Shown one piece after another: positions 22,906 through 27,018 of a DNA stretch of 64,000 nucleotides (its first letter is position 1; the number at the start of each line of letters is the position of its first letter). Below the pieces are notes generated by a model. The model did not search any database. It worked only from the letters and a program-made list of their open reading frames with translations, and was not told the DNA's origin. Position numbers and translations under genes: made by a program. Origin of the DNA: Candidatus Latescibacterota bacterium (lineage in GTDB: Bacteria > Latescibacterota > UBA2968 > UBA8231); NCBI GenBank assembly GCA_022819745.1, contig JAJEGS010000035.1, positions 1 through 64,000 of the forward strand, written 5' to 3'.

Positions 22906-23334
22906 TCAGAAGTTCAAGTCGGCCAAAAGCACGGTCCAAGGCAGGGAAGAGACTTTGCGGTACAGGTCGCTGTCGCTGGTCACGGCTTGACAGCGGAGAT
23001 GGGCGCCTAAGGCGATGAAACCGGCGGCGTACATGCTAATGGAATGCTCAAAGGCGATTTGAGTGGCTTTGCGGGTAATTTCGGCGTTGTAGGGCACAAT
23101 ATCCAAGTGCATGTACTCCAAGCTGGCCAAGGCGTCGTCGATATGGGTGCGATCGAATTGGCGGCTTTCCTTGAGGACATGGGCTAGTTCATATATAGAT
23201 TGATCAAGCACGGTCAGCGCGATTCTTTCCGCTAGCTGCTCTTGGCGAAGGCCAAGGGCCTTGTGGGTATCCATATCGTGCGCTGAAGAAAACCACTTCA
23301 GCATAACGGAGGTATCTAGCGCGTAGCGAATCAC
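22906..23334 (-). CDS. PIN-domain protein, VapC-like, with one acidic residue missing
   Basis: The 142-residue protein has the PIN fold pattern: Asp7 in YALDTSVMLKW, Glu49 in YELAHVL and an Asp pair at 121/123 in TSDSDLY. The third acidic position, normally the Asp of a YDA motif, is Ala103 here (SMYAAGFIAL). VapC toxins are Mg-dependent RNases that need these acids, so catalysis may be weak or lost. The GTG start overlaps the stop of the ribbon-helix-helix gene as GTGA, the classic antitoxin-toxin order. Confidence 0.82.
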   Translation of the reverse strand: MIRYALDTSVMLKWFSSAHDMDTHKALGLRQEQLAERIALTVLDQSIYELAHVLKESRQFDRTHIDDALASLEYMHLDIVPYNAEITRKATQIAFEHSISMYAAGFIALGAHLRCQAVTSDSDLYRKVSSLPWTVLLADLNF

Positions 23335-23588
23335 CGCGCTTGCCTTTCCGCGCGCAGGATCTTAAGAGGATCCCAAGGCAATGCCTTTTCGCGCAAGCTG
23401 TCTTGGAGCGCCATTCCGTGTTCAATAGCGGCCTGTTTTCGCTGGTACTCATACGTTGCTTCCCGTTGTTGGCAGTACGCCATAAAGGCTAGGCGCAGGA
23501 GTTTGCTGCGGCTTACGCCTTCTTGCTGCGCAACCTGGTCGATGCGTTTGAGCAGATCGTCCGGCAGCATGATATTTACGCGCGCCAT
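23331..23588 (-). CDS. Ribbon-helix-helix (CopG/RHH) antitoxin-like regulator
   Basis: The 85-residue protein opens with ARVNIMLPDDLLKRIDQVAQQEGVSRSKLLRLA, a textbook ribbon-helix-helix DNA-binding domain. The C-terminal 45 residues would wrap the PIN partner. The start at 23588 is set by AGGAAAGG upstream; a longer frame to 23657 has no such site. It precedes and overlaps the PIN gene and probably represses both. Confidence 0.82.
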   Translation of the reverse strand: MARVNIMLPDDLLKRIDQVAQQEGVSRSKLLRLAFMAYCQQREATYEYQRKQAAIEHGMALQDSLREKALPWDPLKILRAERQAR

Positions 23589-23714
23589 AAGGCCTTTCCT
23601 TTTATCCGACAAGCGGCGGGAAGTTGCCAAGGTAGTTTTGCACCAACGGGCTGTCAAGACGGGCCTCTTGCCTTAGTTTGGGTCGATCTTTAATGTTACA
23701 ATTGGGATTAGAGC

Positions 23715-24665
23715 ATGAAAAATCACTTGAAAATATTATCGGGCTCCAGCAATCCACAACTGGCCCAAGAAATATGTGATTACTTAGACATCGCGCCCGC
23801 TCGCCGCCAGATCGTCCGTGCGCCAAACGACAATATAAAGGTTAAAGTTGAGGAGAACGTACGCGAAGACGACGTCTTCGTCATCCAGACCTCAGCATCT
23901 CCGGTCAATCATCATTTTGTTGAACTGCTGTTACTAATCGACGCGCTCAAGTACGCATCATCGCGCCGAATCACGGCTGTGTTGCCCTATTATCCGTATG
24001 TGCGCTCCGACAAAAAGGATGAACCGCGCATTTCTATTAGCGCCCGCCTCGTCGCCGACTTGCTGCAAGCCGCCGGGGCTGACCGGATCTTGACAGTTAC
24101 CTTGCACAGCTCGCAAATCGCAGCGTTCTCGCGCATTCCGGTGGACCAACTGTGGGCGACGAGCTTACTGTGCAATTTTATGCGGCTGAAGGGCCTCAGC
24201 AACGCCGTGGTGGTGTCGCCCGACGTAGGGAGTGCCGATGAAGCCAGCGCGTACGCGCGCCGACTCGGCTTGCCGCTGGCCATTATGGACAAACGCCGCC
24301 ACGCGGACGACGAAAAAGCCGAAATCAAAAATATGATCGGTGAGGTCGCCGGCCGCGATGCCTTGCTCTTCGACGACGAGGTGTTGACGGGGGGATCTAT
24401 GATGAAGTCGATCGAGGTGCTGAAAGAAAGAGGTGCGCACCGCATACTGGCTGGCTGTACGCACGGCGTTTTTTCTGGACGAGCCTTAGAGAGGATCGAT
24501 GCCTCCTCGGTGGAAGCGTTCGCCACTACGAATACTATTCCCTTACCTGCGGACAAGCCAAGGCGCAAAATCGCCGTGCTGAGCGTGGCCCGATTGTTGG
24601 GGGATGCCATCAAAGCTATTCACCACGGTGAGTCTGTGAGCCGCTTGATTGAATGGGAGGACTAG
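23715..24665 (+). CDS. prs: Ribose-phosphate pyrophosphokinase (PRPP synthetase), catalytic paralogue
   Basis: The 316-residue enzyme makes PRPP from ribose 5-phosphate and ATP. The ATP loop YVRSDKKDEP holds Arg97, the catalytic flexible loop DKRRH (residues 192-196) supplies Lys193 and Arg195, and FDDEVLTGGSM is the PRPP loop. All key residues match active enzymes. It heads a cluster with DUF5989, apt and a second PRPP-synthetase-like gene. PRPP feeds adenine salvage by Apt just downstream. Confidence 0.94.
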   Translation: MKNHLKILSGSSNPQLAQEICDYLDIAPARRQIVRAPNDNIKVKVEENVREDDVFVIQTSASPVNHHFVELLLLIDALKYASSRRITAVLPYYPYVRSDKKDEPRISISARLVADLLQAAGADRILTVTLHSSQIAAFSRIPVDQLWATSLLCNFMRLKGLSNAVVVSPDVGSADEASAYARRLGLPLAIMDKRRHADDEKAEIKNMIGEVAGRDALLFDDEVLTGGSMMKSIEVLKERGAHRILAGCTHGVFSGRALERIDASSVEAFATTNTIPLPADKPRRKIAVLSVARLLGDAIKAIHHGESVSRLIEWED

Positions 24666-24668
24666 TTG

Positions 24669-24830
24669 ATGGTAAGTAAATTGAGTATATTAGCTGAGTT
24701 GTGGGATTTTATGAAGGTGCGCAAAAAGTGGTGGTTGGGGCCGATATTTTTCACTTTGATTCTGTTGGGATTGTTAATAGTCACGACCCAAGGGTCGGCG
24801 GTGGCTCCGTTTATTTACGCACTATTTTAA
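24669..24830 (+). CDS. DUF5989-type single-span membrane microprotein
   Basis: The 53-residue product has an amphipathic N-terminus (ILAELWDFMKVRKKWW), one membrane helix (about residues 24-41) and a C-terminal QGSAVAPFIYALF. This layout matches DUF5989 proteins, usually found near SxtJ-type membrane proteins and carbamoyltransferases. GGAGG is eight bases before the ATG, and only three bases separate it from the prs stop. Its role is unknown. Its position inside a nucleotide operon is unusual as far as I know. Confidence 0.8.
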   Translation: MVSKLSILAELWDFMKVRKKWWLGPIFFTLILLGLLIVTTQGSAVAPFIYALF

Positions 24831-24871: not shown

Positions 24872-25378
24872 ATGAAAAACCTAATCCGCGAAATTCCCAA
24901 CTTCCCGCAAGACGGCGTCTCGTACAAAGACATCACGCCGCTGCTCAAAGACCCTGCTGGTTTATCCGCTGCGGTCCAAGCTATGCTCAAACCCTTTGTG
25001 GACGCCGAAGTGGACCTAGTCGTCGGCATAGAGGCCCGCGGATTCGTGTTCGCGGTGCCCATAGCACTCGAATTTGGATGCGGTTTTGTGCCCGTGCGCA
25101 AACCAGGCAAGCTGCCGGCGGCCACGCTGAGTCGCGATTACTCCCTCGAATACGGCGAGACCTCCTTAGAAATCCATACGGATGCCATCGCGTCGGGGCA
25201 GAAGGTCTTGGTCGTGGATGACGTTTTAGCCACCGGAGGCACCTTGGTAGCGACGTGTCAAACGCTCGAAGAGCTAGGAGCGGTTGTTGTGGGCATCAGC
25301 GTTTTGGCCGAGTTGAGCTTTTTGTCAGGCCGCGACCGCTTGGCCGAGTACAAATTGGAAAGCGCTATCGTCTATTGA
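24872..25378 (+). CDS. apt: Adenine phosphoribosyltransferase
   Basis: The 168-residue enzyme converts adenine and PRPP to AMP in purine salvage. IREIPNFPQDGVSYKDITPLL is the N-terminal hood, GIEARGFVFAVPIA the purine-side loop, and VVDDVLATGGTL the PRPP loop. Length is standard. It follows the PRPP synthetase gene and DUF5989, so its substrate is made by the same operon. The initiation region lacks a Shine-Dalgarno site and is unusually A-rich. Confidence 0.95.
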   Translation: MKNLIREIPNFPQDGVSYKDITPLLKDPAGLSAAVQAMLKPFVDAEVDLVVGIEARGFVFAVPIALEFGCGFVPVRKPGKLPAATLSRDYSLEYGETSLEIHTDAIASGQKVLVVDDVLATGGTLVATCQTLEELGAVVVGISVLAELSFLSGRDRLAEYKLESAIVY

Positions 25379-25414: not shown

Positions 25415-26083
25415 ATGTCGAGTGAACGTCGTAAACTAAGCAAGAGTGAACTCCGCGAAGATGAGTTCGTCGAATGGATCATGGAAGCGGTCGAATACGT
25501 CAAAGAGCGTGCCCGTCTCTTTGTCGGTGGGACCGTTGCCGTGATCGCGGTCATTGTGGCCATCAATTATTTCATCGAGTCCAAGGAGGCTGATCGGCGC
25601 AAAGCTGCGGCTCTGCTCGGCGATGTGCTGATGGTCGAACAGGGCGGAGAACTGACCGAAGCGATCCGCCTAGCCGAGGAGTTGGTGTCCTCCTATGCCG
25701 GGACCCTAGCTGCAGCCCAAGGGACCGTGCTCTTGGCCAATCTCCACTACGCTCAGGGCCGTTATGTTGAGGCCCGGGGCTATTACCAGACCTACTTGGA
25801 CAACTACGAGCCTTTAGATGTGTTGGCCTATGCCGCCCAAAGCGGTCTAGGTGCCTGCCTTGAAGCCGAAGGGCAGCTTGTGGCCGCGGCTGAGCACTAC
25901 GAAACGTATGCCACCGAGCAGGCCGGGACTATCCGCGAGGCGATGGCGCGGATGGAAGCAGCCCGCATATATGGGTTGGCCGGCCAAAGCAACAGGCAAC
26001 AGGCCCTACTTGAACAGGTCAGTCGCACATTTGCCCAGTACCCAATTGCCGCACAAGCTCGAGCGGCACTAGCCATGTTCTAA
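25415..26083 (+). CDS. Membrane-anchored TPR protein (YfgM-like)
   Basis: The 222-residue protein has a charged cytosolic N-terminus, one membrane helix (residues 37-54) and TPR-like helices across residues 60-222, with motifs such as LANLHYAQGRYVEARGYYQTYLD. The layout matches YfgM/BamD-like ancillary proteins, which act at the Sec translocon or in outer-membrane assembly. Its place between apt and the second PRPP-synthetase gene suggests only cotranscription. Confidence 0.75.
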   Translation: MSSERRKLSKSELREDEFVEWIMEAVEYVKERARLFVGGTVAVIAVIVAINYFIESKEADRRKAAALLGDVLMVEQGGELTEAIRLAEELVSSYAGTLAAAQGTVLLANLHYAQGRYVEARGYYQTYLDNYEPLDVLAYAAQSGLGACLEAEGQLVAAAEHYETYATEQAGTIREAMARMEAARIYGLAGQSNRQQALLEQVSRTFAQYPIAAQARAALAMF

Positions 26084-26094
26084 AGGACCTGTTG

Positions 26095-27018
26095 ATGGGC
26101 CGTGCAGATATCAAGGTTTTCGCCGGGCGGAGTAATCCCGCATTGGCCGAGGGCATTTACCAGTCGCTGGCCCTTGAGCCAGGGCGCATCGAGTTTATCG
26201 ACTTTAGCAACGAAAATATAAAGGTGAAGATTTGCGAAAACGTGCGCGGACGCGATGTGTTTTTTATCCAAACTTCGTGTCCGCCCGTTAGCGACTACTT
26301 GATGGAGTTGCTCATAGCCCTCGACGCCCTAAAATACGCCTCGGCCGGTCGCATCACCGCGGTCTTGCCCTACTATCCGTATGCGCTGGCCGACAGCAAA
26401 GACGAGCCAAGAATTTCCGTGACGGGTCGCTTAGTGGCCGACCTGATCGCCGAGGCAGGGGCGGACCGCATTCTCACCATGACTTTACATAGCCCGCAGA
26501 CTATGGGGTTTAGCCGGATTCTAGTGGATCAACTAAGCGGCGTCCCGGCAATATGCTCCTACTACGCCGACCTCGACCGAGCTAACTTAGTCGCGGCCGC
26601 TCCGGACATCAGCCGCGCCAAGGTCACCGAAACCTATGCCCAGCGATTGGGGTTGCCTCTCGTCGTCGTTGATCAAGCGGCCGGGGAAAACAGGGTCATT
26701 GGCGACGTAGCCGACCGAGATGTCGTATTTTTCGACGACGCGATCATTACTGGTGCTTCCATCCTCAAGGGAGCTGCCGCGGTCAAGGAGCGCGGGGCGT
26801 GCAAAGTCTATGCCGGTTGCGTCCACGGCACTCTAACCAAGGAGACGATAGCGCGGCTGGATCAGTCCAACTTCCAAGCCTTAGCCATTACTGATACGAT
26901 CCCCTTGCCGGTAGATGCCCGCACCCCTATGGTGCAGGTGTGCTCGGTAGCCTCGCTCTTTGCCAGCGCCATCCGCGCTATCCACGAAGAAACGTCCATC
27001 AGCGCACTATTCAACTGA
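26095..27018 (+). CDS. PRPP synthetase-like paralogue lacking catalytic-loop residues
   Basis: The 307-residue protein aligns along its whole length with the upstream prs product: NENIKVKICENVRGRDVFFIQT, YYPYALADSKDEPRISVTGRLVADL and FFDDAIITGAS. Three key sites differ. Arg97 of the active paralogue becomes Leu98. The catalytic DKRRH loop becomes DQAAG (193-197), so Lys193 and Arg195 are Gln and Ala, and the loop is about five residues shorter. It is probably not a PRPP synthetase on its own. A regulatory subunit role, as for mammalian PRPP synthetase-associated proteins, is an inference. The start at 26095 follows AAGGA; TTG at 26092 is possible. Confidence 0.85.
   Translation: MGRADIKVFAGRSNPALAEGIYQSLALEPGRIEFIDFSNENIKVKICENVRGRDVFFIQTSCPPVSDYLMELLIALDALKYASAGRITAVLPYYPYALADSKDEPRISVTGRLVADLIAEAGADRILTMTLHSPQTMGFSRILVDQLSGVPAICSYYADLDRANLVAAAPDISRAKVTETYAQRLGLPLVVVDQAAGENRVIGDVADRDVVFFDDAIITGASILKGAAAVKERGACKVYAGCVHGTLTKETIARLDQSNFQALAITDTIPLPVDARTPMVQVCSVASLFASAIRAIHEETSISALFN

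Follow-up and report, generated by a model that had tools for sequence, protein, structure and literature searches.

A conserved pair of PRPP-synthetase paralogues with complementary losses in one family of Latescibacterota: a candidate split active site

In known PRPP synthetases each active site spans the bent dimer: the regulatory flexible, pyrophosphate, catalytic and ribose-5-phosphate loops come from one chain, and Phe35, which stacks on the adenine of ATP, comes from the FLAG hairpin of its neighbour. The nucleotide site is thus made by two chains, with the FLAG coming from one subunit and the loops from the other (PMC12238573). In E. coli the purine lies between F35 of one chain and R96 of its partner (PMC6332680), and a cryo-EM structure shows ADP bound by R99 and H131 of chain B and touched by F35 and D37 from chain C (PMC9232217). 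Active enzymes of classes II and IV lack R96, having a related motif in class II and Thr in class IV (PMC13252144). Bacteria typically express a single PRPS enzyme, and published structures are described as limited to homomeric configurations, the structural basis of heteromeric partnership being called unclear by the authors (PMC12238573).

In yeast, two paralogous subunits, Prs1 and Prs3 (also Prs2 and Prs5, or Prs4 and Prs5), form the minimal functional unit. Prs1 has Phe35, which Prs3 is not known to keep. The yeast system is tied to cell-wall signalling, and its broken loop is interrupted by a long insertion. The subunit with the disrupted catalytic flexible loop is incapable of PRPP synthesis (PMC9221600). 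In mammals, PRPS1 and PRPS2 are accompanied by PRPSAP1 and PRPSAP2 (PAP41 and PAP39), which retain the FLAG region while losing the loops; PRPSAP2 is altered at the equivalents of D171, K194, R196, N200 and T225. PRPS1 has been studied standalone in vitro, and it was suggested that PAPs, having retained the FLAG region, pair with an active isozyme as a functional dimer (PMC12238573). A 2026 survey counted 37 pseudoenzyme events in a screen of a eukaryotic set (PMC13252144). Among the titles listed in a search of the openly accessible literature, none dealt with a pseudoenzyme or an obligate pair of PRPP synthetases in bacteria.

The window analysed here is a stretch of 64,000 nucleotides from a Latescibacterota bacterium. 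It contains two PRPP-synthetase genes, below called A and B, in the same-strand gene order threonine synthase, Cys/Met PLP enzyme, A, DUF5989, apt, TPR protein, B, metallophosphoesterase, rsgA, hprK (Table 1), where the hprK label rests on sequence and position rather than on a family search. B starts with the ATG at 26095, preceded by AGGA at a spacing of seven bases, and stops at 27016-27018; called mechanically, the open reading frame begins with an in-frame TTG at 26092. A scan for promoter-like and terminator-like sites gave nothing above chance (two against 2.7 expected and three against 5.8 expected, respectively), and in particular no terminator above chance between A and B. The DUF5989 ORF is found between A and apt in 16 of the 23 family loci read, two of the misses being at contig edges. 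Just upstream of A, on the minus strand, the region 22906-23657 of the window encodes a PIN-domain ORF (PF01850) and a ribbon-helix-helix ORF (PF07878/PF01402), a layout resembling the VapBC toxin-antitoxin systems.

Table 1. Positions in the window of the two synthetase genes, their active-site segments and the genes between them
Feature	Position	Strand	Remarks
A, catalytic-type PRPP synthetase subunit, 316 aa	23715..24665	+	open ORF; TIGR01251 344.9 bits
A, FLAG tip RAPNDNI	23817..23837	+	Ala36 codon 23820-23822 at the Phe35 position of E. coli
A, regulatory flexible (RF) loop YVRSDKK	23997..24017	+	Arg97 (24003-24005) intact
A, catalytic flexible (CF) loop DKRRHADDEK	24288..24317	+	Lys and Arg intact
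A, Ile312, at the E. coli F313 position	24648-24650	+	Phe lost
DUF5989 small ORF between A and apt	24669..24830	+	PF19451 4.7e-25
apt, adenine phosphoribosyltransferase (PRPP-using)	24872..25378	+	TIGR01090 200.4 bits, above cut-off
TPR-repeat protein between apt and B	25415..26083	+	TPR_16 1.3e-10
B, PRPP-synthetase paralogue and putative FLAG donor, catalytic loops degenerate, 307 aa	26095..27018	+	open ORF, Pfam, fold
B, Phe37 (E. coli F35), adenine-stacking FLAG residue	26203..26205	+	kept
B, RF loop YALADSK	26380..26400	+	Arg96 to Leu98 (26386-26388); Lys/Arg99 to Ser
B, pyrophosphate loop PDISRAK	26602..26622	+	G172 to S; newly fixed motif
B, CF-loop remnant DQAAG	26671..26685	+	alignment with A
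B, ribose-5-phosphate loop DDAIITGAS	26734..26760	+	D220/D221/T225 kept, G227 lost
B, Phe306 (E. coli F313, allosteric site 1)	27010..27012	+	kept in B

The family was represented by 25 genomes, which were searched with B and for which operon maps were drawn; the window's own genome is not among them, and G001, the nearest genome compared with the window, has 37% of sampled 31-letter words in common with it. The B-type set (n=141) combines 21 genomic sequences (20 family genomes and the window) with the best 120 of 6880 database matches. Two further homologue searches likewise listed the best 120 of 6328 and of 7988 matches. The truncated copy of G042 was left out of the A-type set (n=141), database sequences P0343 and P0345 were moved into it, and P0344 was left out of the single-type set (n=109, including T. 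thermophilus). Genomic and database rows overlap, redundancy was kept, and the rows are not independent. Conserved positions are given in E. coli numbering, where Arg96 is the R of YARQDR, and residues of B itself are numbered from its ATG. Six cis residues were scored: R96, the basic residue at 99, G172, K194, R196 and G227.

The N- and C-terminal Prs domains of the class I-like fold family span both proteins over their full length (Pribosyltran_N, 1.2e-43 in A and 2.5e-39 in B; Pribosyl_synth, 1.5e-25 and 2.5e-20); of the two, only A matches Pribosyltran. The proteins are about 49% identical. An AlphaFold2 model of B built on a 29-row alignment (pLDDT 85.9, below 50 only at RF-loop residues 96-104; pTM 0.87) has the synthetases of T. 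thermophilus, E. coli, human and B. subtilis as its ten best PDB fold matches (TM 0.91-0.95), and shows that the fold of B is retained, the model speaking to fold and not to assembly. In the RF loop, YVRSDKKDEPR of A is aligned with YALADSKDEPR of B, so that Leu98 stands opposite Arg97 of A and Arg96 of E. coli. In the CF loop, DKRRHADDEK is aligned with DQ-------AAGENR, leaving a gap of seven residues. At the R96, 99, K194 and R196 positions the window's B has L, S, Q and A.

These changes can be followed through the B-type set. R96 is absent from all 141 sequences (Leu in 140, Pro in one), that is, from 21/21 genomic B-types and from 120/120 database relatives listed, and therefore a sequencing accident can be dismissed. 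The basic residue at 99 is lost in 133 (132 have Ser99), G172 in 135 (it is kept in six, and in all A-types) and G227 in 130. The catalytic loop is less uniform: K194 is kept in 51 B-types, R196 in 61, and both in 33 (four of the 21 genomic and 29 of the 120 listed database sequences), whereas one or both are missing in the other 108. Each of the 141 lacks at least three of the six cis residues (range 3-6), and in 52, the window's B included, all six are gone. By its sequence, the window's B does not have the residues of a catalytically competent PRPP synthetase (K194, R196, R96/99).

A preliminary description of this DNA had already presented B as a second PRPP synthetase encoded in the same operon as A, with Leu98 in place of Arg97 and DQAAG in place of DKRRH in a shortened loop, and all of this is confirmed. 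Its further point, the loss of the loop Lys and Arg, holds for the window's B and does not define the paralogue, given the 33 B-types with both residues. Relatives keeping the Lys and Arg in a shifted alignment had been named there as counter-evidence, and at the level of the family such counter-evidence partly exists. A shift hiding the Lys and Arg in the window's B was also considered and rejected, because B relatives with a DKRR loop align unshifted, whereas the window's branch has the seven-residue deletion. Three changes of B had not been remarked upon, K99, G172 and G227, nor had the loss of Phe35 in A described below. The loss of R96 was dropped as sufficient proof that B is inactive, since active class II and class IV enzymes lack it (PMC13252144).

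Other parts of the B site are kept. D98, H131, D220, D221 and T225 are found in 140-141 of the 141 B-types and D170 in 132. Phe35 is kept in 140, the remaining sequence having a gap, and position 313 is Phe in 136 and Tyr in at most five. L96, S172 and R173 are newly fixed in B and are not drifting. The kept residues, together with these fixed ones, suggest that the pocket of B still does something, perhaps ligand binding. P0344, which lies beside the B clade in the tree (local support 0.885), has R96L as its sole change among the scored residues; this and the 33 B-types that still have the loop residues are the basis for a likely order of losses in B, which seems to have begun with Arg96, proceeded to 99, 172 and 227, and reached the catalytic loop last.

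A has the opposite pattern. Phe35 is lost in all 141 A-types sampled, being replaced mostly by Ala, Glu, Ser, Thr or Gly with none of these fixed, and is present in all 109 single-type relatives; beyond this close class, its conservation rests on E. coli, T. thermophilus and 13/13 other Latescibacterota synthetases. A also lost Phe7, Gly137, Lys175 and Phe313, all of which B kept, and further A-only losses are I72, E178, V211 and F296. Position 313 is L, V or I in 141/141 A-types. In contrast, R96, K99, H131, D170, K194, R196 and D220 are kept in 141/141, D221 in 136, T225 in 140, and N37 and N39 in 133 each. None (137) or one (4) of the six cis residues is lost in A-types, as in single-type enzymes (none in 104, one in five). 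Thus A has the other active-site contacts of a homomeric synthetase, whereas the Phe35 that each chain would take from its neighbour is present in 0/141.

The losses in A and B are complementary. Of the 114 sites that single-type relatives conserve, losses confined to B hit 6/12 cis substrate sites and 7/102 others (Fisher p 4e-4, to be read as descriptive, since the site list was chosen from papers after the alignment had been seen), and losses confined to A 0/12 cis substrate sites. The variability of site 35 is 2.38 bits in A and 0.06 in B, and this site ranks second of 315 for excess variability in A, although the complete FLAG segment of A ranks no higher than the top 8%. The catalytic loop varies more in B (2.21) than in A (0.34), being in the top 0.7% of windows for excess in B, whereas the variability of B is nothing unusual in the RF, pyrophosphate and ribose-5-phosphate segments, where 44%, 72% and 16% of windows, respectively, score as high. 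In 15 pairs from the window and five close genomes the median dN/dS is 0.064 for A and 0.066 for B, compared with 0.188 for apt, 0.119 for rsgA and 0.095 for hprK. Purifying selection on A and B is strong and equal, and stronger than on these three neighbours.

The A/B arrangement is conserved in one bacterial family. Eighteen of the 25 family genomes hold both genes in one operon, the A gene of G042 being cut by the contig start. In three (G041, G052, G063) one gene is at a contig edge and the other is unreadable; in one (G046) both are broken; and three (G045, G053, G058) have neither, G045 and G053 being without an operon contig in the hprK search. None of the 25 has one gene with the slot of the other readable and empty, and across the family the two genes are kept or lost together. 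B is open in 20 of the 25 and in the window. The L090 record also has A and B in the same operon, and its A, like that of G041, is 83% identical to the window's A. Relatives of B at 67% identity or more fill all of the best 120 of 6880 database matches.

The synthetase content of the genomes was read with PF13793, with TIGR01251 and by direct search for a divergent type. In the single-contig genomes G050 and G051 these searches turned up A and B and no further synthetase, apart from a weak TIGR01251 match of 26 bits inside the apt gene between A and B in G050. Hence PRPP in these two genomes would have to come from the pair unless an unrelated enzyme exists. No other synthetase is seen in 11 of the 18 pair genomes. 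The remaining seven have another synthetase-like gene, either a third-class synthetase (G054, G057, G061) or a divergent 405-aa type (G047, G059, G060, G064), and thus PRPP could there have a source besides the pair. Over all 25 genomes the third class occurs in five (G046, G053, G054, G057, G061) and the divergent gene in six (G046, G047, G059, G060, G063, G064), and the statement that the family has no other synthetase is rejected. The divergent type, exemplified by L115 432-1646 (G046:C554; 405 aa), scores 113.3 bits with TIGR01251, just over the cut-off, and its best PDB match is weak (1.6e-14).

Two genomes without an intact pair have a readable operon. In G058 (L105 7517-9675, G058:C1) an ALAD (porphobilinogen synthase) gene is at the place of A, and 110 bases between the TPR and phosphoesterase genes are at the place of B, in an operon that is intact in other respects. 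The genome is 86% complete, and the PF13793, TIGR01251 and divergent-type searches found no synthetase in it. The DUF5989 ORF persists there and is followed by an acylphosphatase gene. In G046 (L066 2858-5484, G046:C119; L065) both genes are broken by deletions, with stops in A in addition, while the neighbours are open. This genome is 84% complete and the contig is 94-96% identical to that of G047. The breaks could be a real loss or an assembly fault. The bin of G046 also contains a third-class synthetase (YGKGDKKD, GDKER) and a divergent one on other contigs, which would let the genome dispense with the pair.

By sequence only, neither protein has a complete site alone and the two have one together. 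Because the losses are complementary for a site made by two chains, A and B probably form an obligate heteromer, with one working site per bent dimer built from both proteins. After duplication, A would have retained all loops and lost Phe35; B would have retained Phe35 and lost Arg96, Lys/Arg99, Gly172 and Gly227 and later, in many lineages, Lys194 and Arg196. A bent A:B dimer would then have one complete site, made of the A loops and the B FLAG, and another damaged from both sides, and a single subunit, A or B, would be expected to make little or no PRPP. On balance, we favour the reading that this bacterial PRPP synthetase is obligately hetero-oligomeric and that its active site has been split by reciprocal degeneration, the loops residing in A and the FLAG Phe in B, and nucleotide control perhaps being split too. 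Several points speak against a heteromer: B retains more (D98, H131, D220, D221, T225 and mostly D170) than a dead site would seem to need, and L96 and S172 are fixed in it; three of its loop segments vary no more than usual; A mostly keeps N37 and N39, and the need for Phe35 in a class that has N37/N39 for D37/E39 is presumed; active enzymes without R96 exist; seven pair genomes have another synthetase-like gene; and G058 and G046 are incomplete.

The preliminary description had taken A for an intact active enzyme and B for a bacterial counterpart of the PAPs. A is not intact, Phe35 being lost in every A-type. The view of B stands in so far as B is a conserved, probably non-self-sufficient paralogue beside its partner and apt, although "active plus weak partner" is incomplete; the two-gene arrangement does recur in relatives, and the view that a bacterial case would be notable agrees with the contrast drawn in PMC13252144 between bacteria, with new classes, and eukaryotes, with pseudoenzymes. 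A fully PAP-like system, with A an active homomer and a non-catalytic B tuning assembly or ADP/phosphate control, would explain why A has kept its loops and its R96, K99, H131, D170, K194, R196 and D220 throughout and why B, which like the PRPSAPs retains the FLAG region (PMC12238573), alone kept Phe313 of allosteric site 1. However, if A:A sites work, it is hard to see why the Phe35 that acts in trans was lost from all A-types without a fixed replacement when all single-type relatives keep it, and we consider this explanation unlikely. It is still less probable that the two are isozymes, B being an active synthetase with a relaxed nucleotide donor. The active enzymes of classes II and IV without R96 (PMC13252144) and the 33 B-types with K194 and R196 agree with it, but most B-types miss one or both of these, all miss at least three cis residues, and the window's B lacks the whole six and seven loop residues besides.

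B could also be a separate ligand-binding protein, for instance a sensor of ribose-5-phosphate or PRPP, that does not join A. Its ribose-5-phosphate pocket (D220/D221/T225) is kept and the PDISRAK motif is newly fixed, as such a role might require; but Phe35 and N37/N39, whose counterparts in known structures act on the nucleotide of the neighbour, are fixed as well, and both genes are missing from G058 and both are broken in G046, which makes a sensor very improbable. Finally, the missing catalytic residues could be taken for decay of a duplicate, or for an assembly artefact. This is practically ruled out by a dN/dS equal to that of A, by the open frame in the window, in 20 of the 25 family genomes and in the 120 listed relatives, and by the confidently modelled fold (pLDDT 85.9).

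For the heteromer, yeast Prs1/Prs3 would be a closer model than PRPS with a PAP. Yeast Prs is eukaryotic and its loop is broken by insertion, whereas B has substitutions and a deletion. The PRPSAP1 and PRPSAP2 structures (2ji4, 2c4k) are among the PDB sequence matches of B, with bit scores of 150-153 compared with 245 for T. thermophilus. The PAPs have inserts in the catalytic loop and are not encoded in an operon; B has no inserts and mostly keeps D170 and T225. Judged by similarity only (49% identity to A, 57% to the synthetase of Latescibacterota family f5), B is not an orthologue of the opisthokont PRPSAPs, and these identities point to a separate origin. If the heteromer is real, the A/B pair would parallel the fungal Prs1/Prs3 and provide natural evidence for the functional dimer suggested for PAPs with a kept FLAG region (PMC12238573). 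PRPP synthesis is universal, and in most of this bacterial family it seems to depend on two subunits neither of which is complete. Being encoded in one operon, free of large inserts and, in two single-contig genomes, without another synthetase, the pair would be a simple system for studying how a live subunit is completed by a dead partner and how the two share control.

The nearest solved structure to B is PRPP synthetase II of T. thermophilus (5T3O, 7PN0; E 7.7e-72; 43% identity and TM 0.91-0.93 by fold). It has the class motif SDKKDxPRISI and, unlike A and B, has F35, R96, K194 and R196 all in one chain. The closest relatives outside the family are the single-type synthetases of Latescibacterota families f2, f5 and f7 (56-62% identity to A, 47-57% to B); the six genomes examined have one match of the class each, and all keep F35, R96, K99, G172, K194, R196 and G227. 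In family f4, two other synthetases are found 1-2 kb apart (L075 4731-8550, G034:C7, and G032:C25 149787-152736). One of the G034 copies carries Lys in place of R96. Since F35, K194 and R196 are retained in the two G034 copies, the f4 pair was set aside as a second case of a split site.

Allosteric control may be divided between A and B in the same way as catalysis. F313 of site 1 is retained in B. Position 147, whose aromatic residue stacks on ADP at allosteric site 2 of E. coli (PMC9232217), is Trp in 141/141 A-types and Ser in 137/141 B-types. However, almost all members of the class already differ at R102 and E133 of the allosteric sites, and divided control is thus only a lead. Val149 is found in 141/141 B-types. 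Positions 147-149, with Trp147 in A and Ser147 and Val149 in B, are a candidate knob-and-hole determinant or, alternatively, a change of allosteric site 2.
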